A stretch of DNA of 44,575 nt from an uncultured bacterium (lineage in GTDB: Bacteria; Patescibacteriota; Minisyncoccia; Phycocordibacterales; UBA9973): positions 1-44,575 of the forward strand of contig CAIJZZ010000010.1 of assembly GCA_903825255.1 (NCBI GenBank), written 5' to 3'. The notes under the pieces are model-generated. The model did not search any database and was not told the origin of the DNA. It saw only the letters and a program-made list of their open reading frames with translations. The first letter of the stretch is position 1; the number at the start of each line of letters is the position of its first letter. The position numbers and the translations under genes were made by a program. Below, one piece after another: positions 17,960-38,852 of the stretch.

Positions 17960-17976
17960 TTTTAAATAAAAAAAAT

Positions 17977-18020
17977 AAAAAGCCCCGCACCGACGTAGCC
18001 TGTGCGGGGCTTTGCTTTTA
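17977..18020 (+). terminator. Rho-independent terminator of the M23 gene
   Basis: Stem AGCCCCGCAC / GTGCGGGGCT with an 11-nt loop (17991-18001), A-rich on the left and T-rich on the right (tttgctttt). It begins 18 bases after the stop. Confidence 0.9.
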
Positions 18021-18027
18021 AAATTTT

Positions 18028-18340
18028 TCAATGAACTGCTCGGGTTGAGCTAAATAAAAGAGAGCGACCCAAAATATAAATAATCGGGCAGAGGAGAGAG
18101 ATTTGCTCTCCCCTATATAGCGCTGTCAATCCGAACAGTTCACTAAAGCAGAGCCCCGACTTACGCCGGGGCTCTGCAAACCTCGCAATGAATCCGTTTT
18201 TTAAAAAAATGAACTCAATAACGAGGGCAAACAATTTTTTAAAAATCATTTGCCCAAAAGTTTTTTAACCCTTAACCCGTTATGATCTATGACGGAAATC
18301 ACCCGTCCAGTTTTTTGTTAGTGACTGGAAAAACTTGATA
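18028..18340. other. Hairpin array between convergent genes
   Basis: A gene-free stretch holding at least five inverted repeats in series. First is a compound stem TGAACTG..TCGG (18032-18043) with CCGA..CAGTTCA (18131-18142), enclosing GGAGAG/CTCTCC. Then come an 11-bp stem GCAGAGCCCCG/CGGGGCTCTGC (18148-18177), CCTCG/CGAGG (18181-18226), GGGCAAA/TTTGCCC (18225-18255), GACGG/CCGTC (18291-18307) and CCAGT/ACTGG (18307-18328). It may be a structured RNA plus terminators, or protein-binding palindromes. Strand and function are unresolved. Confidence 0.55.
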
Positions 18341-18342
18341 TT

Positions 18343-19902
18343 TTATTCTTCCTGAGTTTCAGTATGGATATTTCTCATCCGAGGACGTGTTCTTTGTCCG
18401 GGGAGATTTTCTGACTCAATATCCTCTTCTTTGAAGAATTTGTTGATAATAACCACCCTAAAGCGGTCATTTTTTAACATCTCCTCAAGCCTTTTGTGGG
18501 CCAGGATGTCCTTACAGATCATCTCTCCCTTTCTTAATGAGTATTCATTCATGAAACTTTCAGTCCCTGGAATACAATTCCCCGTTGCCAAGGAATCTTC
18601 AATAGTTAAAACAGTGTCCAAATTTTCACTCAGATACTGTTTAACTTTTTCTATCTGCTGGTTTTGGTCCCAACGAGCTGAATTTAAAAACTGAGAACGA
18701 ATTTTTTTAATTAATTCATTTTTCATTTGTTCAACCCACTCTTCAACTGGCTTACTGAACCACTCAACCACGTTTTCTACTAACAATTCATACTCCATAC
18801 TAGTGTTTTCTAGCACAGAATATTTTTCGTTGATTTCAGATGGAACAGCTTCAAGAACTGCATAAACTTTACTTCCACCGCTCACTCTTTTGTAGACAAA
18901 TTTGAATGGTCCAAATCCTTTAGTCACCCATCCATGACTCCAGCTTCTGAAATTATCTTTGGGAAATAATTCTCCCTCAATAACTTCCTTTGGAAAACCA
19001 AAGTAACCTTTTTGTACAAGTTTTTTATTCTCAGTTATGCCTAGGTTCATTTTATTTAAAATAAAAGAACCCAATTCTTCTATCTCGAGGGTACATGGCA
19101 TATGTTTTAATAAACTTACATATGCTTCAAATGGATAAGGTAAATGGTATGGTTTCCCGTTTTGGATTCCCATATGGTTTCCTCCCCACAAAACCTCAAA
19201 TTCCTTTAGTTGAAATTCGTTGTCTAAATATTTATAGACAACTTTATTTCTTGCTTCAGGAAATTTTCCAAGAAGCGCATCAATTACTTCCCAAGCATAA
19301 GAGAAAAAAAATAATTCTCCATTTTTTTCTACAACTGCCGGGCAGTTTTCGGTAATTCCTTCCACTGGAACCATCAATTTGGTTCCCATAATTTCACAAG
19401 GCCATGCCTCACTCAAATATGTGATATTCGCACGATACGTTCCTGGAATTTCTAGAAGGTCATTTTGCTCAGCTGTCGGGCATAGAAATCCTGCCCCACT
19501 CGATCCACTTCTTGAAGAATAATATTGTTTTCCTCCATACAAATCGTGAAGACCTTCACGATCATTTTGGTTATAAGAGAAAAATAATTTTTTATTGTTT
19601 AAAGATAACAATACGGTTCCTGATCCACCCCCAAAAGAGTAAGAAACTCTTTGGGTTTTAATTGGTATTTCAGAAGAAACAAAAATGGTCCGACCTAAGT
19701 CGGCGGCATCCATTATTTCTTTTACCATATTATTCGGCACAGTGAAATTTTTATTCCCATGCGCCCAACACTTCCACTCAATACCGATTGCTGGCTGAAG
19801 TTCCTCAATCCAGCTTTCTTTTTCACTTTCTACTACGAAGATAAACAAACCAAAAAAATTTTTTTCCGGAACTTCCGGATAAACATACTTACTATTTTCC
19901 AT
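18343..19902 (-). CDS. Unknown 519-residue protein
   Basis: Not recognised. It is predicted soluble: no signal peptide and no membrane segment. It starts MENSKYVYPEVPEKNFFGLF and contains a Gly/Ser stretch (YSFGGGSGTVLLSLNNKKLF). Near residues 440-475 it has TIEDSLATGNCIPGTESF followed by a helical Lys/Glu tail. I have a faint memory of the GNCxPGTxxF pattern at the end of assorted phage and bacterial proteins, but I cannot name the family. Upstream, a short CCCG/CGGG hairpin (about 19912-19933) precedes the start, with no Shine-Dalgarno sequence visible. The gene lies downstream of the structured RNA at 20040-20467 on the same strand, so it could be expressed from that promoter behind a very long leader. 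Confidence 0.75.
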   Translation of the reverse strand: MENSKYVYPEVPEKNFFGLFIFVVESEKESWIEELQPAIGIEWKCWAHGNKNFTVPNNMVKEIMDAADLGRTIFVSSEIPIKTQRVSYSFGGGSGTVLLSLNNKKLFFSYNQNDREGLHDLYGGKQYYSSRSGSSGAGFLCPTAEQNDLLEIPGTYRANITYLSEAWPCEIMGTKLMVPVEGITENCPAVVEKNGELFFFSYAWEVIDALLGKFPEARNKVVYKYLDNEFQLKEFEVLWGGNHMGIQNGKPYHLPYPFEAYVSLLKHMPCTLEIEELGSFILNKMNLGITENKKLVQKGYFGFPKEVIEGELFPKDNFRSWSHGWVTKGFGPFKFVYKRVSGGSKVYAVLEAVPSEINEKYSVLENTSMEYELLVENVVEWFSKPVEEWVEQMKNELIKKIRSQFLNSARWDQNQQIEKVKQYLSENLDTVLTIEDSLATGNCIPGTESFMNEYSLRKGEMICKDILAHKRLEEMLKNDRFRVVIINKFFKEEDIESENLPGQRTRPRMRNIHTETQEE

Positions 19903-20039: not shown

Positions 20040-20467
20040 ATATTAAATTTTCAAAAAACTTTTATCTTTACCACAAATCCGGTCTCTCTCCTCTTTGTGC
20101 TCTGAATATTTCTCCTCAAATACTCAGCTCCTTCGTAAAGACATTTCAGATCACAAGAGAGGGTTAAGCTCTTATGGTCTGCCTATGTCTTCTCAAGCTT
20201 TCGCTTAAGACTATCCCCACTTCGCCAAGGCTATGCGGGGCAGGACAAGGTTGTGGATTTGTTGTATCTTTAACCTCGGTTTGCGGCTTTGGTTAAATTT
20301 ACGATCCACGGTGCAAACAGATCTCAAAGGATTGTCTCTCATCCCACTCTCTCCTCTTTCCTAGCTTACAGGTCTAGGTACCATCCCATTTATTATTTCC
20401 TTAATAAACGGTTCAGAGGTGGGCATCAATCGTTTGGTATCTCCTTGAAATGAACATGTCTTACTCT
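20040..20467 (-). ncRNA. Unassigned structured RNA with near-consensus promoter
   Basis: About 430 bases have no significant open frame but many helices when read on the minus strand. Examples are CTTAAGC-gaaa-GCTTGAG (a 7-bp stem with a GAAA tetraloop), TTTAACC/GGTTAAA nested within GTGGAT/ATCCAC, CCTAG/CTAGG, GTTTATT/AATAAAT, a helix of CAGA-CA-AAGAG with CTCTT-TG-TCTG, and GAGTATTT/AAATATTC. It is preceded by TTGACA-17 bp-TATGAT. I see no tmRNA T-loop or CCA end, no RNase P GAGGAAAGTCC, no SRP GGAAG/GCAGC core and no rRNA signature. Both ends are approximate. Confidence 0.6.
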
Positions 20468-20473
20468 GGTTAT

Positions 20474-20502
20474 ATCATAGCATAATGAAATTGTTTTGTC
20501 AA
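20474..20502 (-). promoter_or_regulatory. Strong promoter of the structured RNA
   Basis: On the minus strand: -35 TTGACA (20497-20502), a 17-bp spacer, and -10 TATGAT (20474-20479). Among the -35/-10 pairs I could find, only the lexA one is as close to consensus. The predicted start is about 20467. Confidence 0.8.
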
Positions 20503-20571: not shown

Positions 20572-20580
20572 TTGTCATAT

Positions 20581-20609
20581 TTGCATGACAAAAACAAATA
20601 ATGTAGAAT
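20581..20609 (+). promoter_or_regulatory. Promoter of TrmB-like gene, leaderless type
   Basis: -35 TTGCAT (20581-20586), 17-bp spacer, -10 TAGAAT (20604-20609), then exactly 6 nt and the ATG at 20616. Confidence 0.75.
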
Positions 20610-20615
20610 AAAAGT

Positions 20616-21401
20616 ATGCAAGAAGAAAATATTTTAATCCAGGCTGGGCTTTCAGAAGAGCAGGCTCAGGCTTATCAGTCTCTTTTAGATAAAGGACCGC
20701 AGAGGGCCAGCGACCTAGCTAAATGGACCGGTATCAAGCGTGGACTTATTTACAAAGTCTTAGAACAGCTTGAATCTATGGGTTTAGTGTCTAAAAAGGG
20801 CGGCCCAGGAACCGTGGCCACCTTCTCCCCTTCACATCCATCTCTCCTACTGGCCAATATTGAAAGAAAAGAAAAAGAAATGGCTTTAACTAAAGAAATG
20901 CTTTTAAGCTCTATCGGATCTTTGTCTTCTAAATATAATTTAATTACTGGCAAGCCCAATGTGCAGTTCTTTGAAGGAGAAGAAGGAGTTAAAAAGATAC
21001 TAGAAGACACTTTAAGTACAAAAGAAGAAGTTTTGACTTATCTTGATATGGAGATTGTGGAAAAGCATTTTAAAAAGATAAATGATGAATATGTTTTAAA
21101 AAGAGAGGCTAAGGGAATTAAAAAAAGAATTTTAGCGATTGAAAATGAGTTCACTTTGGCTTTGTTTCGACAAAAGTTTCAAGAGAATCCAAGCTTCTTT
21201 TCGATTACTGATTTGAAAATTGCGAAAACTCCAATTAATGAAATCGAGGGAGCAATTCAAATATATGAAAATAAAATAGGTATTATTACTGTCTCAAAAG
21301 AAAATTTGATAAGTATTTTAATCGAGGACGACAGAATCAATAAATTATTTAAAAGTATGTTTGAGGCGCTTTATTTGGTTTCGCCTGGATTTACGCCATA
21401 A
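20616..21401 (+). CDS. TrmB-family winged-helix transcriptional regulator
   Basis: A 261-residue DNA-binding regulator. The N-terminal winged helix-turn-helix (about residues 10-70: EEQAQAYQSLLDKGPQRASDLAKWTGIKRGLIYKVLEQLESMGLV) matches the TrmB N-terminal pattern. A short helical linker leads to an effector-type domain beginning PNVQFFEGEEGVKKILEDTL. The gene at 29828 is a clear paralogue with the same two-part build (KPKVFFYEGVEGVKKVYEDTL). The ligand and targets are unknown. The start is well fixed, because the -10 ends 6 nt before this ATG. The 3' end overlaps the convergent 750-residue gene by 31 bases. Confidence 0.88.
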   Translation: MQEENILIQAGLSEEQAQAYQSLLDKGPQRASDLAKWTGIKRGLIYKVLEQLESMGLVSKKGGPGTVATFSPSHPSLLLANIERKEKEMALTKEMLLSSIGSLSSKYNLITGKPNVQFFEGEEGVKKILEDTLSTKEEVLTYLDMEIVEKHFKKINDEYVLKREAKGIKKRILAIENEFTLALFRQKFQENPSFFSITDLKIAKTPINEIEGAIQIYENKIGIITVSKENLISILIEDDRINKLFKSMFEALYLVSPGFTP

Positions 21402-23623
21402 TCTGCTTGGATGTTTTCATAAACAGCATACCATTCTCCGTTATTTACAAAACAACGAACTAGGGACTTACCTTCTGGAATATTTGTATGCAAAGATTCA
21501 AGGTTTTTTGATTTTCTGATTTCAAATTTTTCTGTATCTGTATTTTCTTGCATACTCATTATCTCTTCTTGAGTTTTTTGTTTTGCTAAAATATTTTTAT
21601 TTTTAACTTCATCCCATATTAGGTTGAATTCTTCTGTATTGTTAGTTTTTTTAAAACCTTTTGAAATAAAACCTTTTTCAAAATATCGCATATTGCTTGG
21701 GTTGTCTTTTCTGCAAGAAGCATGTAAAACATTATTTTGTGCTTCGCGAATTAAGGCTTCGTCCATCATCGCTTCACCTAAACCGAAATTCTTACTAGCT
21801 TCATCTACATTTAAAGCACTGGCGTACAAGCTTTGGTCGTTTTGCTTTTCGAATCTGACAAAGGCTCTTGTTTTATCGTCTTTCTCAAAAGTGTAAAAAT
21901 AATTTTTACTTTTATTTATTTCTGGATTAAAGGAAGTTTTAAAATATTCTTTTAATGATTCAACAAAGTTTTGGTCCGGATAATTTTTCCAGTTTTCCCC
22001 ATACAATTCTAACATTTCTTTTTGTTGTTCCGTTGATATTTCAAAAGCATCCTTTTTTGAAAAAACAGAACCCTCAATGCTTTCAATCGGAAGTTTTTCC
22101 CCGTTCTTTATTGCTTGTTTAAATATAGCAAAAGTAGTTATCGTATCTGCATTTATACGATCTAATTGTTTTGAAATATCTTCATAATTAATTTTGTTTT
22201 TATTATTTATATTCTCATATGTTTGAGAAAGTAGTTGTTTCCCTTTTAAATATAAGGTTTCCTCAATTTTACCAATAAGTTCAGGATTAGTTTCAATTTC
22301 ATGGCTGAAATTATTTTTAGTAAACTCAGTAATTTTATTAACATTATCTATAATCTCCCCATATTTTTCAAACAGTTTTTTAGCTGGTTCTTCTGGTAAT
22401 TTTTGTCCGATCTTTAATATTTTATCTCCCATTTCCTGGCCACCCTGTTCAAGGGAAAGAAAAGTTTTCATCTTATTATATTTTTCTGTTTCTGTTTGGC
22501 GAGTGGATCTGTTTATAAACTCATTTAGGACTTGTAGTTTTTTTTCTGTTTTATTTTGTATAAATCCTAGAAAATGTAATTGGTTTTCCAAACTCATTTT
22601 AGATAAATCTATATCAAGCATTTCTTTTATATATTCTCTGAACTCTAAAGAAGAAGATATTTTAAATAAAGCTAAATTTTCAGGAGAATTTATCAATCCT
22701 TCTTTTTTCAGTTTAAAAGTGTCGTCTAATTTATTCTGTGATTTTTCATTTAACTCATCTATTTTTTTCCAACCAACTAGTCTTCCTCTTATTGTATAAA
22801 TACCAACCTCTTCTGGTGATATTTGTGAATTTATATAGTCTCCCACAAAAACCTCCTTGAAACCACTGTGGTCTTCTGTTAAGACACGTTTTATATATGT
22901 TGGGTAGATGTCTTCACCCCCTGCCCAATATTCGGGGGCACCTTCCAAAAGTCCAATTATCCCCACTAACGGATCTATATCATTTATTATTATATTTCTT
23001 TGGTTTTCATTAAATTCAAATTTATAACGATTAAATTTTGGATTTGAAAAAGAGAACATTTCTTTTTTTTGCCCAATATTTTCTCCAATTTTTTTTTCTA
23101 GATTCCCTTCATTAATCCTTCCATTTATTACATCATCTAATTCATAAAGTCCGTAAATTACTTCTTTCAGGAAAATCTTTTCAAGTATTGTTGTCTTTTT
23201 ATCTTTAAATATTTCTATTAATTCTTGTGCAACTTTAAGTTCATTACCAGGACCAAAGGTTTCTTGATTAGCTTCAGTTTCAGTAAAGGCGAGATCAAGT
23301 AGTGATTGTATCGCTATAATTTTTTTAATATCTTCTTCTTTTTTATTATTCTTTAATAACTCGATAAGTTTTTCTTGGTACTCATAGATTTTCCATGACC
23401 ACTCTATTGAATCTACTTCTTCCAATACTTTTTCTCCAAATTTTTTTACCAATTCTTTCTCAAAAAAATTTGGATAGGCATTTATAATATTTCCATTTTC
23501 ATCTAAAGATTGATTGATAATCAAATCAGGATTTATGTCAAAATTTTCGGCAAAATTATAAACATCATCAGGTAATATTGCCTTTTCTTTGCTTTTTATT
23601 TCCGGGGCATTATCGAATTTCAT
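21371..23623 (-). CDS. Large protein with C-terminal GNAT acetyltransferase-like domain
   Basis: The 750 residues are mostly charged and helical, with no signal peptide. Residues about 590-670 resemble a GNAT N-acetyltransferase: a beta strand (RAFVRFEKQ), then ASALNVDEASKNFGLGEAMM, where VxxxxxxxGLGxxMM fits the acetyl-CoA-binding motif A, and a later RYFEKGFISKGFKK strand. The roughly 550-residue N-terminal part is not recognised. Similar long charged proteins with terminal GNAT domains occur, as I recall, in CPR genomes. The substrate is unknown. A TAAAAT hexamer ends 6 nt before the ATG at 23623. The C-terminus ends inside the opposite-strand TrmB-like gene. Confidence 0.8.
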   Translation of the reverse strand: MKFDNAPEIKSKEKAILPDDVYNFAENFDINPDLIINQSLDENGNIINAYPNFFEKELVKKFGEKVLEEVDSIEWSWKIYEYQEKLIELLKNNKKEEDIKKIIAIQSLLDLAFTETEANQETFGPGNELKVAQELIEIFKDKKTTILEKIFLKEVIYGLYELDDVINGRINEGNLEKKIGENIGQKKEMFSFSNPKFNRYKFEFNENQRNIIINDIDPLVGIIGLLEGAPEYWAGGEDIYPTYIKRVLTEDHSGFKEVFVGDYINSQISPEEVGIYTIRGRLVGWKKIDELNEKSQNKLDDTFKLKKEGLINSPENLALFKISSSLEFREYIKEMLDIDLSKMSLENQLHFLGFIQNKTEKKLQVLNEFINRSTRQTETEKYNKMKTFLSLEQGGQEMGDKILKIGQKLPEEPAKKLFEKYGEIIDNVNKITEFTKNNFSHEIETNPELIGKIEETLYLKGKQLLSQTYENINNKNKINYEDISKQLDRINADTITTFAIFKQAIKNGEKLPIESIEGSVFSKKDAFEISTEQQKEMLELYGENWKNYPDQNFVESLKEYFKTSFNPEINKSKNYFYTFEKDDKTRAFVRFEKQNDQSLYASALNVDEASKNFGLGEAMMDEALIREAQNNVLHASCRKDNPSNMRYFEKGFISKGFKKTNNTEEFNLIWDEVKNKNILAKQKTQEEIMSMQENTDTEKFEIRKSKNLESLHTNIPEGKSLVRCFVNNGEWYAVYENIQADYGVNPGETK

Positions 23624-29179: not shown

Positions 29180-29596
29180 TTAATAAGAAAAACTTGGAAT
29201 CGTTCCTGAATGCATTAACCCGCCAAACACAATAACACGTTTAAGATATCCTTTGGTGTTTTCACAGAAAATATGTCTAATGTTATTGTTGTTAGGGTCA
29301 TCGTCATCAGATATACCAACGATACTATCTATCTCGTTAAATGCTTCATCAGTATCCTTGTACGGTTCAGAAAAAATTCCCCCCATCCATTTTATTCTCT
29401 TGTTAAAGATATGAAATTCAGATCTATAGAAATCATTGCATTCTTTTCTTTGAATAAAAACAGCGGCTAATCCATTTTCATCTGTAAAATATCCCATTTC
29501 ACAAATATTTTTACATGTTTCAGAATCCCCTGCTTTTTCTCCTAGTAGTTTTTTTAATTGTTTATTGCTAAACTTACCATTATTAATATTTTTCAT
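29180..29596 (-). CDS. Hypothetical 138-residue protein
   Basis: Not recognised. It is predicted soluble with alpha/beta character: an N-terminal Lys-rich helix (KFSNKQLKKLLGEKAG), a middle with YFTDENGLAAVFIQRKECNDFYRSEFHIF, and an acidic stretch (GISDDDDPNNNN) before a short Gly-rich tail. The ATG at 29596 is preceded by a leader with a CTCGC-tgtt-GCGAG hairpin (29610-29625) and CCGcaaggaCGG. Codon use and base composition match the surroundings. The gene could be a spurious extension of a structured region, but the length and composition favour a real gene. A TGAGCAA/TTGCTCA inverted repeat lies downstream (about 29139-29167). Confidence 0.6.
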   Translation of the reverse strand: MKNINNGKFSNKQLKKLLGEKAGDSETCKNICEMGYFTDENGLAAVFIQRKECNDFYRSEFHIFNKRIKWMGGIFSEPYKDTDEAFNEIDSIVGISDDDDPNNNNIRHIFCENTKGYLKRVIVFGGLMHSGTIPSFSY

Positions 29597-29791
29597 ATCT
29601 TATATCCAGCCTCGCAACAGCGAGATTCCCGTCCTTGCGGTTATTAAACTGGGTTGTAAATTCAATGAACATTTATCTGAGTATAGTATAGCAGATTAAA
29701 AACATTTGTCAAGTAATATGACCAAAATATAGTTAAAAATAACCTATTTTATATACCTAAAATTATATTATTAAAATTCTGTTCGCATAGA

Positions 29792-29821
29792 TTGACAAAA
29801 TATAGTGCTTTGATATACAAT
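29792..29821 (+). promoter_or_regulatory. Promoter of second TrmB-like gene, leaderless type
   Basis: -35 TTGACA (29792-29797), 18-bp spacer, -10 TACAAT (29816-29821), then 6 nt to the ATG at 29828. An upstream TTG in the same frame is simply part of the -35. Confidence 0.75.
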
Positions 29822-29827
29822 ATAGGA

Positions 29828-30610
29828 ATGGAAAACAAGAATTTAGATTTGCAAAAAAGTTTAGAATTTATTGGCTTTAGTGAGAAAGAAGTTTTAGTCT
29901 ATTTATCACTACTAGAATTAGGTCGTGGCACAGTTACGCAAATATCTCGCAAGGCCGGCATCAATCGCCCGACTGGATACCATGTGCTTGCCTCACTTGA
30001 AGTAAAAGAGCTCGTAAAAGTTTCCGGTAAAGAGCCAAAGCAAGAATATGTGGCAGAATCGCCAGACCAAATTGAAAAACTCTTGCAAGAAAAAATAAAA
30101 AATGACGAGGCTTTTATAAAAGAAGCAAGGAAAATTATTCCAGAATTGAAGTCTATGCACAATGTCTCAGATAAACCGAAAGTTTTCTTTTATGAAGGAG
30201 TGGAAGGAGTTAAAAAAGTTTATGAAGACACCCTCACTTCACACGAACCCATTCGTGCTTATGCAAGTGTTGAAAATATGCATTCAGGTTTACCGGGATA
30301 TTTCCCAGAATATTATCACCGACGAGCTGGCAAAGGCATCTCTATACGAGCCATAGTGCCGGACTCTGAGACAGGGCGTGAAAGAAAAAGTTTTGATGAA
30401 AAAGAAAAAAGAGAAATAGCTTTAGTGCCCTATGAGAATTTTCAATTTATTCCAGAAATAAATATTTATGACAACAAAGTGATGATTGCTTCTTGGAAAG
30501 AAAAGTTAGGAATTATTATTGAATCAAGTGAAATAGCTGATGCAATGAAAAAAATTTATGAACTCGCTTGGGCTGAAGCAAAAAGGTTAGACAAGAAATT
30601 GGGAAAATAA
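29828..30610 (+). CDS. TrmB-family winged-helix transcriptional regulator (paralogue)
   Basis: The 260 residues have a winged helix (LEFIGFSEKEVLVYLSLLELGRGTVTQISRKAGINRPTGYHVLASLEVKELV) and an effector-like domain (KPKVFFYEGVEGVKKVYEDTL...). It is the paralogue of the gene at 20616. The frame is open from a TTG at 29792, but that codon lies in the -35 box. The ATG at 29828 follows the -10 by 6 nt and starts at the expected place for the family (MENKNLDLQKSLEF). It is followed closely, on the other strand, by the acylphosphatase-like gene. The effector and targets cannot be deduced. Confidence 0.9.
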   Translation: MENKNLDLQKSLEFIGFSEKEVLVYLSLLELGRGTVTQISRKAGINRPTGYHVLASLEVKELVKVSGKEPKQEYVAESPDQIEKLLQEKIKNDEAFIKEARKIIPELKSMHNVSDKPKVFFYEGVEGVKKVYEDTLTSHEPIRAYASVENMHSGLPGYFPEYYHRRAGKGISIRAIVPDSETGRERKSFDEKEKREIALVPYENFQFIPEINIYDNKVMIASWKEKLGIIIESSEIADAMKKIYELAWAEAKRLDKKLGK

Positions 30611-35959: not shown

Positions 35960-36028
35960 GTAGAAGTGTTATACTTTTAATAAGTCGAATTTTAAGTATT
36001 TTTATTAGTTAATTTTTTAATATTTAAT

Positions 36029-36034
36029 TAGAAT
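36029..36034 (+). promoter_or_regulatory. -10 of NYN gene, 6 nt from ATG
   Basis: TAGAAT followed by 6 nt and the ATG at 36041. The -35 is weak. Confidence 0.55.
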
Positions 36035-36040
36035 TTTTAT

Positions 36041-36541
36041 ATGGCAGTAATTAAACATAAAGAACAAAGAGTTGGAGTTTTTATCGATACACAAAATGTA
36101 TATCATAGTGCTCGTAATTTATATAAAGCTCGAGTAAATTTCGGTGCAGTTTTAAAAGAAGCAGTCGCAGGTAGAAAACTCGTACGGGCAGTGGCTTATG
36201 TCATTACGACAGAAGCTGGAGACGAGAAGAATTTTTTTGAAGCACTTAGTAAACTCGGCATTGAAACCAAGACGAAAGACTTGCAGATATTTTCCAGTGG
36301 CACTAAAAAAGCTGATTGGGATGTGGGTCTTGCAGTGGATGCAATTAAAATGTCTCCACGACTCGATTCAGTAGTTATCGTTTCCGGTGATGGAGATTAT
36401 ATTCCGCTCGTAGAATATTTACAGGTGAGTGGTGTGCAAGTGGAAGTCGTTTCCTTTGGCAAATCAACTTCTGGGAAACTTCGTGAAGCTGTCGACGACT
36501 TCGTCGACCTTTCCGAAAACCCAAAGAAATATCTCTTGTAA
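36041..36541 (+). CDS. NYN-domain (LabA/DUF88-like) ribonuclease
   Basis: A PIN-fold RNase of the NYN family. The acidic metal-site residues are in RVGVFIDTQNVYHSARN (FIDTQN near residues 15-20), KKADWDVGLAVDAI (D near 91-97) and VVIVSGDGDYIPLVEYL (SGDGD near 115-119). These are the family's conserved D/N clusters. The 166 residues are a single domain with no accessory part. It sits between rpsO and pnp, both RNA-related, suggesting a role in RNA turnover or processing. It has its own promoter and terminator. Confidence 0.9.
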   Translation: MAVIKHKEQRVGVFIDTQNVYHSARNLYKARVNFGAVLKEAVAGRKLVRAVAYVITTEAGDEKNFFEALSKLGIETKTKDLQIFSSGTKKADWDVGLAVDAIKMSPRLDSVVIVSGDGDYIPLVEYLQVSGVQVEVVSFGKSTSGKLREAVDDFVDLSENPKKYLL

Positions 36542-36554
36542 AAACATGTGAAAC

Positions 36555-36592
36555 AAAAGACTCTGCTTTTAAGCAGAGTCTTTTGCATTTTT
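36555..36592 (+). terminator. Terminator of the NYN gene
   Basis: A 12-bp stem AAAAGACTCTGC / GCAGAGTCTTTT, followed by GCATTTTT. Confidence 0.9.
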
Positions 36593-36610
36593 AGCAAAAA
36601 ATGCTAATAT
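36583..36610 (+). promoter_or_regulatory. pnp promoter
   Basis: -35 TTGCAT (36583-36588), 16-bp spacer, extended -10 TGC-TAATAT (36605-36610); TATAAT at 36608-36613 is an alternative. In contrast to its neighbours it gives a leader of about 118 nt. Confidence 0.55.
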
Positions 36611-36616
36611 AATTTT

Positions 36617-36734
36617 AGTTTTGGGTTTAAAAATTATTAGTTAATCAGGTTTACCTTCAAACAGATAGTAGTGTTCCTCAGGAACAATATTATAGTTTGA
36701 AGGGAAACTCATCTCGCGTTGCGGGAGAATTATT
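36617..36734 (+). promoter_or_regulatory. Structured pnp leader with sequestered Shine-Dalgarno
   Basis: A long helix has CCTTCAAAC (36654-36662) pairing GTTTGAAGG (36695-36703) and continues inward to a GTTCC-tca-GGAAC hairpin. A second hairpin CTCGCG-tt-GCGGGAG (36713-36727) contains the GGGAG that would serve as Shine-Dalgarno. Its layout recalls the PNPase/RNase III-controlled leader of E. coli pnp. That analogy is inference. Confidence 0.6.
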
Positions 36735-38852
36735 ATGCAAAAAAAAGAATATGAAATAGAAATTGGCGGGAAAAAAATGACTGCTATTTTCTCAGATTTA
36801 GCCGAACAAGCACATGGTTCTGTGCTCTTGAAATATGGCGAGACCATAGTGCTAGCTACGGCTTGTATGTCCAAAGACAAACAGCAAGGACTCGGCTTTT
36901 TTAATTTGACTGTTGACTATATGGAAAAGTTTTATGCTTCAGGAAAAATTTTGGGATCTAGATTTACTCGTCGAGAAGGTAAAGCCTCAGAAGATGCGAT
37001 TTTGGCTTCACGAGTAATCGACCGCACTCTGCGCCCACTTTTTGATCAATCAATGCGACATGCAGTGCAAATCATCGTTACGGTTATTTCTTTTGATGGG
37101 GAAAATGATCCGACTATTTTAGCAGTGAATGGTGCATCACTCGCACTCGCAGTCTCTAATATTCCTTGGGTGGGTCCGATAGGTTGTGTGCGTATTGGTA
37201 AATATGATACAGAAAATTTAGTAGTAAATCCTTCACAAAAACTACGTGAAAATGACGATCAATATAAATTTGATCTGACTGTCTGTGGAAAAGATGGCAA
37301 CATTAATATGATTGAAGCTTCAGCTCACCAAACCAAAGAGGAAGAACTAGAAGCTGCTTTTATAGAGGCTAGTCTTGAAATCACTAAACTTGAAAATTTC
37401 CAAAAAGAAATAGTCAAAGAAATAGGCAAGGAAAAAAGAATTATTGAAAAAGAAACAATATCTCCAGCATCAGTCGCATTATTTAACGAGAAAATTTTAC
37501 CTCAAATGGAAGCTGCGATTTTTTCCGGAGCAGGAAAAAAGAAGATTGATGAATTACATAATGTTTGGAATAAACTCGTACGAGAAAGTTTTGCCGAACA
37601 AGAAGACTTTTCATTAGAAGATCATTTATTTGATGATACAGAAAATGACATGTTGCACGAAAAAGCAATCAATGAAGACAAAAGAGCTGATGGTAGAAAA
37701 ATGGATGAGCTTCGAGAAATTCAAACACAAGCTGGAGGAATTTCTTCTATATTGCATGGTTCTGGAATTTTTTATCGTGGAGGCACGCATGTTTTATCTG
37801 TGTTAACTCTTGGTGGTCCAGAAGATAAATATTTAAGTGACGGAATGCAAATAAAATCTGAAAAAAGATTTATGCACCATTATAATTTTCCGCCTTTCTC
37901 TGCCGGAGAAGTCGGACGAGCTGGTTTTACCAATCGTCGAGAAGTCGGTCATGGAGCACTCGCGGAAAAAGCGATCGCGATGGTACTACCCGCAGTTACC
38001 GATTTTCCTTATACCATTCGTATAGTTTCTGAATCAATGGCTTCGAATGGTTCCACTTCTCAAGCTTCGATTTGTGGAAGCACTCTCGCACTGATGGATG
38101 GTGGAGTGCCGATCAAAGCACCAGTCGCTGGAATCGCGATGGGACTTATGTATGAGAGTGATGCAAAATATAAAATATTAACTGACATTCAAGGTCCTGA
38201 AGACCATCATGGAGATATGGATTTTAAAGTTGCCGGAACGAGAGAAGGAGTGACCGCAATTCAGCTCGATGTGAAAGTCGAAGGCGTGCCAATAAAAATT
38301 TTAGGTGAAGCAATGCGACAATCTAAAAAAACCCGCATTCAAATTATAGATCAAATCGAAAAAGAAATTCCAAAAACTCGCGCTGAAATTTCACCAAATG
38401 CACCAAAGATTTTAATGATGCAAATTAATCCGGATCAAATCGGAATGGTGATCGGTTCTGGCGGTAAAACAATTAAAGATATTAAAGAAAGATCTGGTGC
38501 AGAAATAACTATCGAAGATGATGGGACGGTGTACTTCACAGGTAAAGGAGGTACGGCTGAAATTGCTAAAAAGATTGTGGAAGAAATGACGCATGAATTT
38601 AAATTGGGAGAAGTTTTGAAAGGCGAGGTGGTAAAGCTAGCAGACTTTGGAGCCTTTGTCCGATTAAATGATTTTACAGATGGTATGGTGCATATTTCTG
38701 AAATAGCCCCATTTCGAGTGGATCGAGTCGAAAGCTTAATGAAAGTCGGAATGATTGTGCCAGTAAAAGTGATCAAGCTCGATCCTGAACGAGGCAAAAT
38801 TTCACTCTCTATTAAAGAGGCCGATAAAGATTTTTTTAAGCCAAAAGCATAA
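36735..38852 (+). CDS. pnp: Polynucleotide phosphorylase
   Basis: A 3'-5' phosphorolytic exoribonuclease, a trimer with mRNA decay and quality-control roles. The 705 residues have all parts: first RNase PH domain (FSDLAEQAHGSVLLKYGET..., GSRFTRREGKASEDAILASRVIDRTLRPLF), helical linker, second catalytic RNase PH domain (DIQGPEDHHGDMDFKVAGT), KH domain (IGMVIGSGGKTIKDI), and S1 domain (GEVLKGEVVKLADFGAFVRL...). It is one of the few genes here with a long leader and a visible Shine-Dalgarno (GGGAG 8 bases before the ATG). The weak terminator downstream lies just before the promoter of the following gene. Confidence 0.97.
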   Translation: MQKKEYEIEIGGKKMTAIFSDLAEQAHGSVLLKYGETIVLATACMSKDKQQGLGFFNLTVDYMEKFYASGKILGSRFTRREGKASEDAILASRVIDRTLRPLFDQSMRHAVQIIVTVISFDGENDPTILAVNGASLALAVSNIPWVGPIGCVRIGKYDTENLVVNPSQKLRENDDQYKFDLTVCGKDGNINMIEASAHQTKEEELEAAFIEASLEITKLENFQKEIVKEIGKEKRIIEKETISPASVALFNEKILPQMEAAIFSGAGKKKIDELHNVWNKLVRESFAEQEDFSLEDHLFDDTENDMLHEKAINEDKRADGRKMDELREIQTQAGGISSILHGSGIFYRGGTHVLSVLTLGGPEDKYLSDGMQIKSEKRFMHHYNFPPFSAGEVGRAGFTNRREVGHGALAEKAIAMVLPAVTDFPYTIRIVSESMASNGSTSQASICGSTLALMDGGVPIKAPVAGIAMGLMYESDAKYKILTDIQGPEDHHGDMDFKVAGTREGVTAIQLDVKVEGVPIKILGEAMRQSKKTRIQIIDQIEKEIPKTRAEISPNAPKILMMQINPDQIGMVIGSGGKTIKDIKERSGAEITIEDDGTVYFTGKGGTAEIAKKIVEEMTHEFKLGEVLKGEVVKLADFGAFVRLNDFTDGMVHISEIAPFRVDRVESLMKVGMIVPVKVIKLDPERGKISLSIKEADKDFFKPKA

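Follow-up and report, generated by a model that had tools for sequence, protein, structure and literature searches.

A pseudoknotted RNA family absent from Rfam marks Paceibacterota operons with apparently selected coding-sequence folding

The comparisons presented here indicate that a pseudoknotted RNA family absent from Rfam marks operons whose coding sequences have apparently been folded by selection. One member lies in the window, by which we mean the whole stretch of 44,575 nucleotides that was analysed, from an uncultured bacterium of the Patescibacteriota. All data were MAG sequence, and the genome bin that holds the window had 6% contamination. Judging by sequence, operons behind one clade of TrmB-type regulators repeat this layout but carry different cargo genes. 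The findings suggest that bacteria can make ribonuclease-tolerant messages, they connect folded messages with enzyme families that counteract type III CRISPR signalling, and they yield testable predictions (message half-life and boxA dependence) in a huge and almost unexplored bacterial group. We know of no bacterial operon type of this kind; a search of the open-access literature found none, nor any paper that joined these themes.

Anatomy of the locus

The features of the locus, in window coordinates, are as follows.

21371..23623, minus strand: GNAT-domain protein, convergent with the TrmB gene and a conserved module partner (Acetyltransf_1, 4.4e-06)
20616..21401, plus strand: divergent TrmB-type regulator (PF01978, 2.2e-13)
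20573..20590, no strand: putative TrmB operator, palindrome TGTCATATTTGCATGACA of the TGTCA-N8-TGACA type
20474..20502, minus strand: promoter TTGACA-17-TATGAT, its -10 extended by a TG just ahead of the second hexamer; nine loci have this -35 and a 17-nt spacer, with -10 hexamers resembling this one
20449..20455, minus strand: promoter-proximal boxA-like GTTCATT, with weaker evidence than the 3' boxA
20249..20447, minus strand: RNA domain I, nested helices P1 to P3, P5 and P6 and pseudoknot GTTTGC/GCAAAC (covariation)
20215..20244, minus strand: REP-like palindrome CCCCGCATAGCCTTGGCGAAGTGGGG, dispersed, in a variable RNA stretch outside the conserved RNA
20129..20194, minus strand: RNA domain II, long hairpin with a conserved UAACC loop (covariation)
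20040..20136, minus strand: RNA domain III, a pair of hairpins whose loops carry GAGGAG(A), then boxA (covariation)
20040..20058, minus strand: boxA-like TTTTTTGAAAATTTAATAT at the RNA 3' end (rRNA-leader boxA matrix)
18343..19902, minus strand: gene for a 519-aa protein, first in the operon and its sole clear cistron, with strong folding of the coding sequence
18180..18278, minus strand: recurring 3'/intergenic structured element made up of GGGTTAAGGGTTAA, a hairpin, CGTTATTGAG and CATTGCGAG
17968..18013, minus strand: strong intrinsic terminator AAAGCCCCGCAC-N11-GTGCGGGGCTTT followed by a T run (sequence and fold)

The promoter that an earlier note on this DNA had described (20502 to 20474) was the best promoter-like site of the region, and, in keeping with the claim in the same note that there is no ORF, 20040 to 20472 held no open reading frame of at least 60 aa. 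The RNA that it had placed here was real, at 20472 to 20040 on the minus strand, but the feature proved to be larger, extending on that strand from the promoter at 20502 to the terminator near 17968. The note had also taken the RNA to be free-standing, and this view was not upheld: the RNA lay between a promoter and a coding sequence, no terminator was found between it and the 519-aa gene (19902 to 18343), and relatives showed the same layout, which is the anatomy of a 5' leader of a protein-coding operon. The transcript appears to be about 2.5 kb long, running from the promoter to the terminator near 18,000, and the RNA is very probably the structured leader of the downstream message, a role that the layout supports well.

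The 519-aa protein matched no family in Pfam, PADLOC or NCBIfam, a search for a phage homologue found none, and its structure model had a pLDDT of 32. The divergent regulator combined a TrmB HTH with a PLD-like C-terminal domain; in Foldseek, its AlphaFold model matched TrmBL2 (E, 1e-14) and PLD-fold nucleases (Nuc, 2.5e-06). A second TrmB-type gene in the window (29180 to 30610) had a divergent TTGACA/TATACT promoter and GTTCATTGAA, without the RNA, and the genes downstream of it were not unusually folded.

This arrangement was shared by the RNA loci of other genomes. The RNA was upstream of an operon at every locus examined and was divergent from a TrmB gene in all but one, G221, where the RNA was located deeper within a long leader and no regulator was recognised. 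Relatives of the GNAT protein adjoined TrmB at the other RNA loci examined, including those of other families. Across loci, the promoter had the form TTGACA-17-TATACT/TATGAT with an extended -10 and was located about 113 to 142 nt from the TrmB start. Each of the nine tabulated loci had a palindrome of the TGTCA-N8-TGACA type between the promoter and the TrmB start, and its distance from TrmB was similar throughout; the sequence context of the operator was kept in the closest relatives.

Fold and distribution of the RNA

The claim that this stretch encodes a folded RNA was confirmed by its predicted free energy, which was -122.4 kcal/mol compared to a shuffle mean of -95.5 kcal/mol (z, -5.1; 0/100). 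When related loci were checked for covariation, as the earlier note had proposed, most helices covaried, and the pseudoknot was kept by compensatory changes. TTTAACC/GGTTAAA nested in GTGGAT/ATCCAC, which had been picked out by eye, was a real helix, and its outer six pairs all showed double-sided changes in a nine-sequence alignment. The GAAA-capped 7-bp stem from the same reading was present at about 20195 to 20213, but it was located in a variable stretch, and its sequence was not conserved.

In an alignment of six domain I sequences, 98.2% of the cells paired and five pairs showed double-sided changes (0/500 shuffles). Such pairs numbered 17 of 32 with nine sequences, among them every one of the five P5 and six P6 pairs, and 21 of 32 with fourteen (65 cells versus 19.6 in shuffles), in alignments that were fitted to the model and so biased towards structure. 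The P5 hairpin, which carries a conserved RCC-K-GTAAG loop, could be read directly, since CCTAG/CTAGG became CCCAA/TTGGG around the same loop. Likewise, the pseudoknot was found in nine of nine strong members, with GTTTAC/GTAAAC and GTTTCG/CGAAAC as compensated variants of GTTTGC/GCAAAC. In domain II, 10 sequences showed double-sided changes at 10 of 19 pairs (0/500 shuffles), and in the domain III hairpins four sequences showed them at 9 of 15, with 100% paired.

Because the genome bin lacked a 16S gene, the boxA-like sequence at the RNA 3' end was compared to the rRNA leaders of relatives. Those of same-genus genomes had CTTTGAYAATTNAATA-like sequences after their promoters, and a matrix built from their boxA sequences ranked the 3' boxA third among about 89,000 window positions; the homologues scored 13.4 to 17.5. 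Thus, by sequence, an rRNA-leader-like boxA occupies a conserved place in the RNA. At the promoter-proximal place, GTTC[AT]TT(GA) recurred in relatives.

No family in Rfam 15 gave a cmscan score over its gathering threshold, and a relaxed cut-off yielded chance-level matches only. With many Paceibacterota homologues and strong covariation, this result supported the suggestion that this is a new RNA class of CPR bacteria. Conservation in relatives was also evident: at least eight further genomes of Paceibacterota, spread over several families, had clear homologues, and there were weaker ones besides. A DNA search of 149 genomes identified true homologues in G012, G016 and G022, three further genomes of the genus, besides many short matches to the dispersed palindrome. 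These 26- to 36-nt matches were set aside as the REP-like element, the same 28 to 30 nt of which turned up at unrelated positions of other genomes within the order. A broad pattern search of 397 order genomes matched the window alone, so covariance models (with short calibration) were needed to find homologues. Searching the GTDB species genomes for the conserved P5 hairpin added one more genome with the RNA, the domain I covariance model gave members in other families of the order, and a second model added weaker members. The RNA was rare and accessory: under the strict filters used for large searches, it was found in 9 of 296 genomes and in 3 of 384 in the class.

The RNA was present in more than one copy in G012. 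Three contigs of that genome, C58, C22 and C57 (L020, L021 and L022), ended at the RNA, and an identical 139-nt RNA middle was flanked by two alternative upstream sides and two alternative downstream ones, which implied at least two copies. The copies had the leader in common and differed in the 3' part.

Several candidate identities were discarded. A leader peptide beginning TTG-ATG-CCC-ACC had a 21-codon open frame, counted from the ATG, both in the window and in G012; it was rejected because its length and frame differed in other members. The T-box likeness of GGGATGGTACC was lost in relatives and had no Rfam match. A phage or virus origin was dropped because the RNA had no matches in phages or viral contigs and no TrmB relative was found in viral contigs; two pattern matches in viral contigs were not confirmed by the covariance model.

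Folding of whole transcripts and the genes they carry

A fold scan of the window placed the main folded stretch at 20470 to 18000 on the minus strand, and the 519-aa gene had a z of -8.0 compared to synonymous shuffles. The only other minus-strand stretch with a mean folding z below -2 was 36001 to 36750. In synonymous-codon shuffles, 31 cargo genes had a mean z of -6.0 versus -0.8 for 31 controls (p, 2.5e-10), with cargo and control genes chosen post hoc. One control was an outlier: a radical-SAM-like gene (L104:11674-12804, minus strand; z, -10.6) whose neighbour, L104:13005-13772, is a further TrmB-type gene that falls outside the clade studied here.

The sense strand was more stable than the antisense strand in 20 of 20 cases. 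Relative to shuffles, it was so in 18 of 20 and the other two were ties, a pattern that suggests selection acting on the transcript rather than on hairpins in the DNA. Such folding of coding regions beyond synonymous shuffles, on the sense strand, is GORS-like. In homologous DUF1874-like genes, 26.8% of the predicted pairs were common versus 2.9% after synonymous shuffling (maximum, 8.2%), and 27 common pairs had changed on both sides; in control TrmB genes of similar identity, 2.1% of the pairs were common versus 1.8% in shuffled sequences.

Within the genus, the divergent region was folded only for TrmBs close to that of the window. Those outside the clade had unfolded divergent regions, so folding was not general to TrmB neighbours. 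A profile search of 397 order genomes added 27 members of the clade, each having a folded divergent region (z, -1.0 to -6.0); the TrmB gene itself was mostly unfolded at these 27 loci, and one divergent region was only 240 nt long.

Structure also recurred after cargo genes. The GGGTTAAGGGTTAA element was found at seven further places in related operons, always on the coding strand and after cargo genes (L072:5042+, L106:9865+, L022:16927-, L023:4904+ and 8710+, L024:4958- and 3610-), and its stem sequence varied freely. Two more motifs, TTCTCACTGACGTTAAA and ATTCCTCTTCGYC, recurred upstream of cargo genes (L020:914+, L022:18784- and 17741-; L103:7221+, L112:542-, L134:1266-, L135:115-).

The cargo behind the leader varied and included MoxR-vWA pairs, NDK, Csx3-AAA, DUF1874-like proteins and unknowns. 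Recurrent cargo of sibling operons comprised Csx3 (E, 2.7e-27), Csx3-AAA (7.5e-52), Csx20-like and Csx16/DUF1874-like proteins, with the Csx20-like and several DUF1874-like matches being weak and below curated cut-offs. The same DUF1874-like protein (KTYFGFGIAPSMFP...) was the first cargo in five genomes of different families (L129, L130, L131, L133 and L136). Crn3, Crn2/AcrIII-1, Csx16 and Csx20 cleave cA4 (PMC12409355). As the window cargo matched no known family, its link to ring nucleases is through sibling operons only. The loci did not classify as type III CRISPR associated, with Cas10 found in 0 of 21 genomes searched, and any cOA response would thus come from another system or another cell.

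Candidate ribozymes were located in operons of the TrmB clade. Two type III hammerheads between cistrons of sibling operons were detected in focused scans (E, 3.6e-07 and 2e-06), and all seven hammerheads listed here were under the Rfam gathering score (E, 3.6e-07 to 0.007).

L022:18028-18082, minus strand: type III hammerhead
L067:2455-2509, plus strand: type III hammerhead
L124:722-776, minus strand: type III hammerhead
L129:498-575, minus strand: type III hammerhead
L130:3345-3399, plus strand: type III hammerhead
L122:594-636, minus strand: type III hammerhead
L103:17537-17579, plus strand: type III hammerhead
L130:3687-3747, plus strand: type-P1 twister ribozyme, cut by the locus end (52 bits; E, 5.7e-09)

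In addition, a G012 cargo operon contained an Rfam DUF805b hairpin (L020:2162-2196, plus strand; 51 bits, over the cut-off).

Proposed role, alternatives and known systems

Our preferred reading, which as a whole we put slightly short of an even chance, is that the RNA forms the structured 5' leader of an accessory operon under TrmB control, in which leader, coding sequence and 3' region would all be folded as one transcript. TrmB would repress the promoter through the TGTCA-N8-TGACA operator, and on its release boxA would load the Nus antitermination machinery, allowing RNA polymerase to cross a long, poorly translated and heavily folded stretch, as it does for rRNA. The folding may then keep ribonucleases that are specific for single strands, for example Csm6/Csx1 or toxins, from degrading the message, while the leader would guard the 5' end of the message and carry boxA and the GGAGAG loops. 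Cargo, which in sibling operons often belongs to ring-nuclease families that destroy cyclic oligoadenylate, could still be made during an RNA-degrading immune or stress response. We regard the shielding step as a shade less probable than the reading as a whole, and coding-sequence folding could instead serve slow translation or another purpose.

An ordinary cis-regulatory leader, in which the pseudoknotted domain I binds a ligand, a protein or 30S and switches downstream transcription or translation, is possible, though clearly less probable than the preferred reading. The position of the RNA, its complex pseudoknotted fold, its conserved loops and a leader that is fairly constant while the cargo is variable would all suit such a device. 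So would GGAGAG, which was enriched five-fold in clade-A leaders in a strand-specific manner (47 versus 9.5 expected; complement, 5 versus 2.7) and may bind a protein or the ribosome. However, no conserved riboswitch expression platform was recognised in the RNA, and no alternative terminator or SD-sequestering switch was conserved between the RNA and the gene. In addition, the cargo was functionally unrelated between loci, so that no metabolite is obvious, and this explanation leaves the coding-sequence folding unaccounted for.

A more sweeping idea is that the RNA is the common leader of a class of Paceibacterota chromosomal operons whose fully folded, boxA-antiterminated and ribozyme-bearing messages would be built for a hostile cytoplasm, whether of a host cell or of the producing cell when attacked, and would deliver enzymes that silence cyclic-oligoadenylate alarms; we regard this idea as improbable. 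Still less likely is a moving unit, in which the cassette or its RNA would move from one cell to another (the hosts of these bacteria, presumed to be episymbionts, are one possible destination), and the folding would serve transfer, packaging or survival there. Such a unit would be consistent with variable cargo, ring-nuclease families in genomes that lack Cas10, self-cleaving ribozymes in sibling operons, and operon copies in one genome with an identical leader middle and different 3' parts. On the other hand, the lack of viral and phage matches to the RNA and of viral-contig relatives of TrmB argues against it, as does the position of the module beside conserved chromosomal genes with no linked transposase, integrase or reverse transcriptase seen.

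A trans-acting sponge of the CsrB/RsmZ type, with GAGGAG loops that bind a GGA-recognising protein or the 16S rRNA anti-Shine-Dalgarno sequence, is very unlikely: several GGAG motifs in or near loops were conserved in relatives, but CsrA/RsmA was not found in the genome (about 96% complete), the RNA did not terminate as a separate transcript, and the GGAGAG sites were paired only slightly less than the leader average. A divergent RNase P RNA or tmRNA, as the earlier note had also suggested, fits in size range only and is refuted almost beyond doubt, since the genome has both elsewhere above cut-off (G000:C60:68303-68595, 118 bits; G000:C3:11692-12096, 125 bits), neither RF00010 nor RF00023 matched at the RNA locus, and the RNA is accessory, patchily distributed and present in more than one copy in G012.

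Among known systems, the leader of our preferred reading recalls the boxA leaders of rRNA operons, in which a strong promoter and boxA accompany a long structured untranslated RNA, and the boxA match was to rRNA leaders of the same genus. In contrast, the locus drives protein-coding accessory operons and no rRNA, and its boxA is known from sequence. CRISPR-array leaders also bear boxA and are subject to Nus-factor antitermination, like rRNA leaders. The put and EAR processive-antitermination RNAs are likewise structured RNAs early in long operons, but the RNA shares no sequence or Rfam match with them and has another fold. OLE, GOLLD, ROOL, HEARO and raiA resemble it in spanning hundreds of nucleotides with a complex pseudoknotted fold and a patchy distribution, whereas the RNA matches no Rfam family. 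Candidate structured RNAs that overlap cas genes have been described as single palindromes (PMC9067536). In the case of type III CRISPR ring-nuclease loci (Crn2/DUF1874, Crn3/Csx3, Csx16 and Csx20), the cargo families of sibling operons are the same, but the operons described here are under TrmB control in genomes without detected Cas10, and the window cargo is unrelated. Finally, the GORS of RNA viruses has the same folding of coding sequence beyond codon and amino-acid content, whereas the folding described here is found in chromosomal bacterial operons in which no replicase or viral gene was seen.
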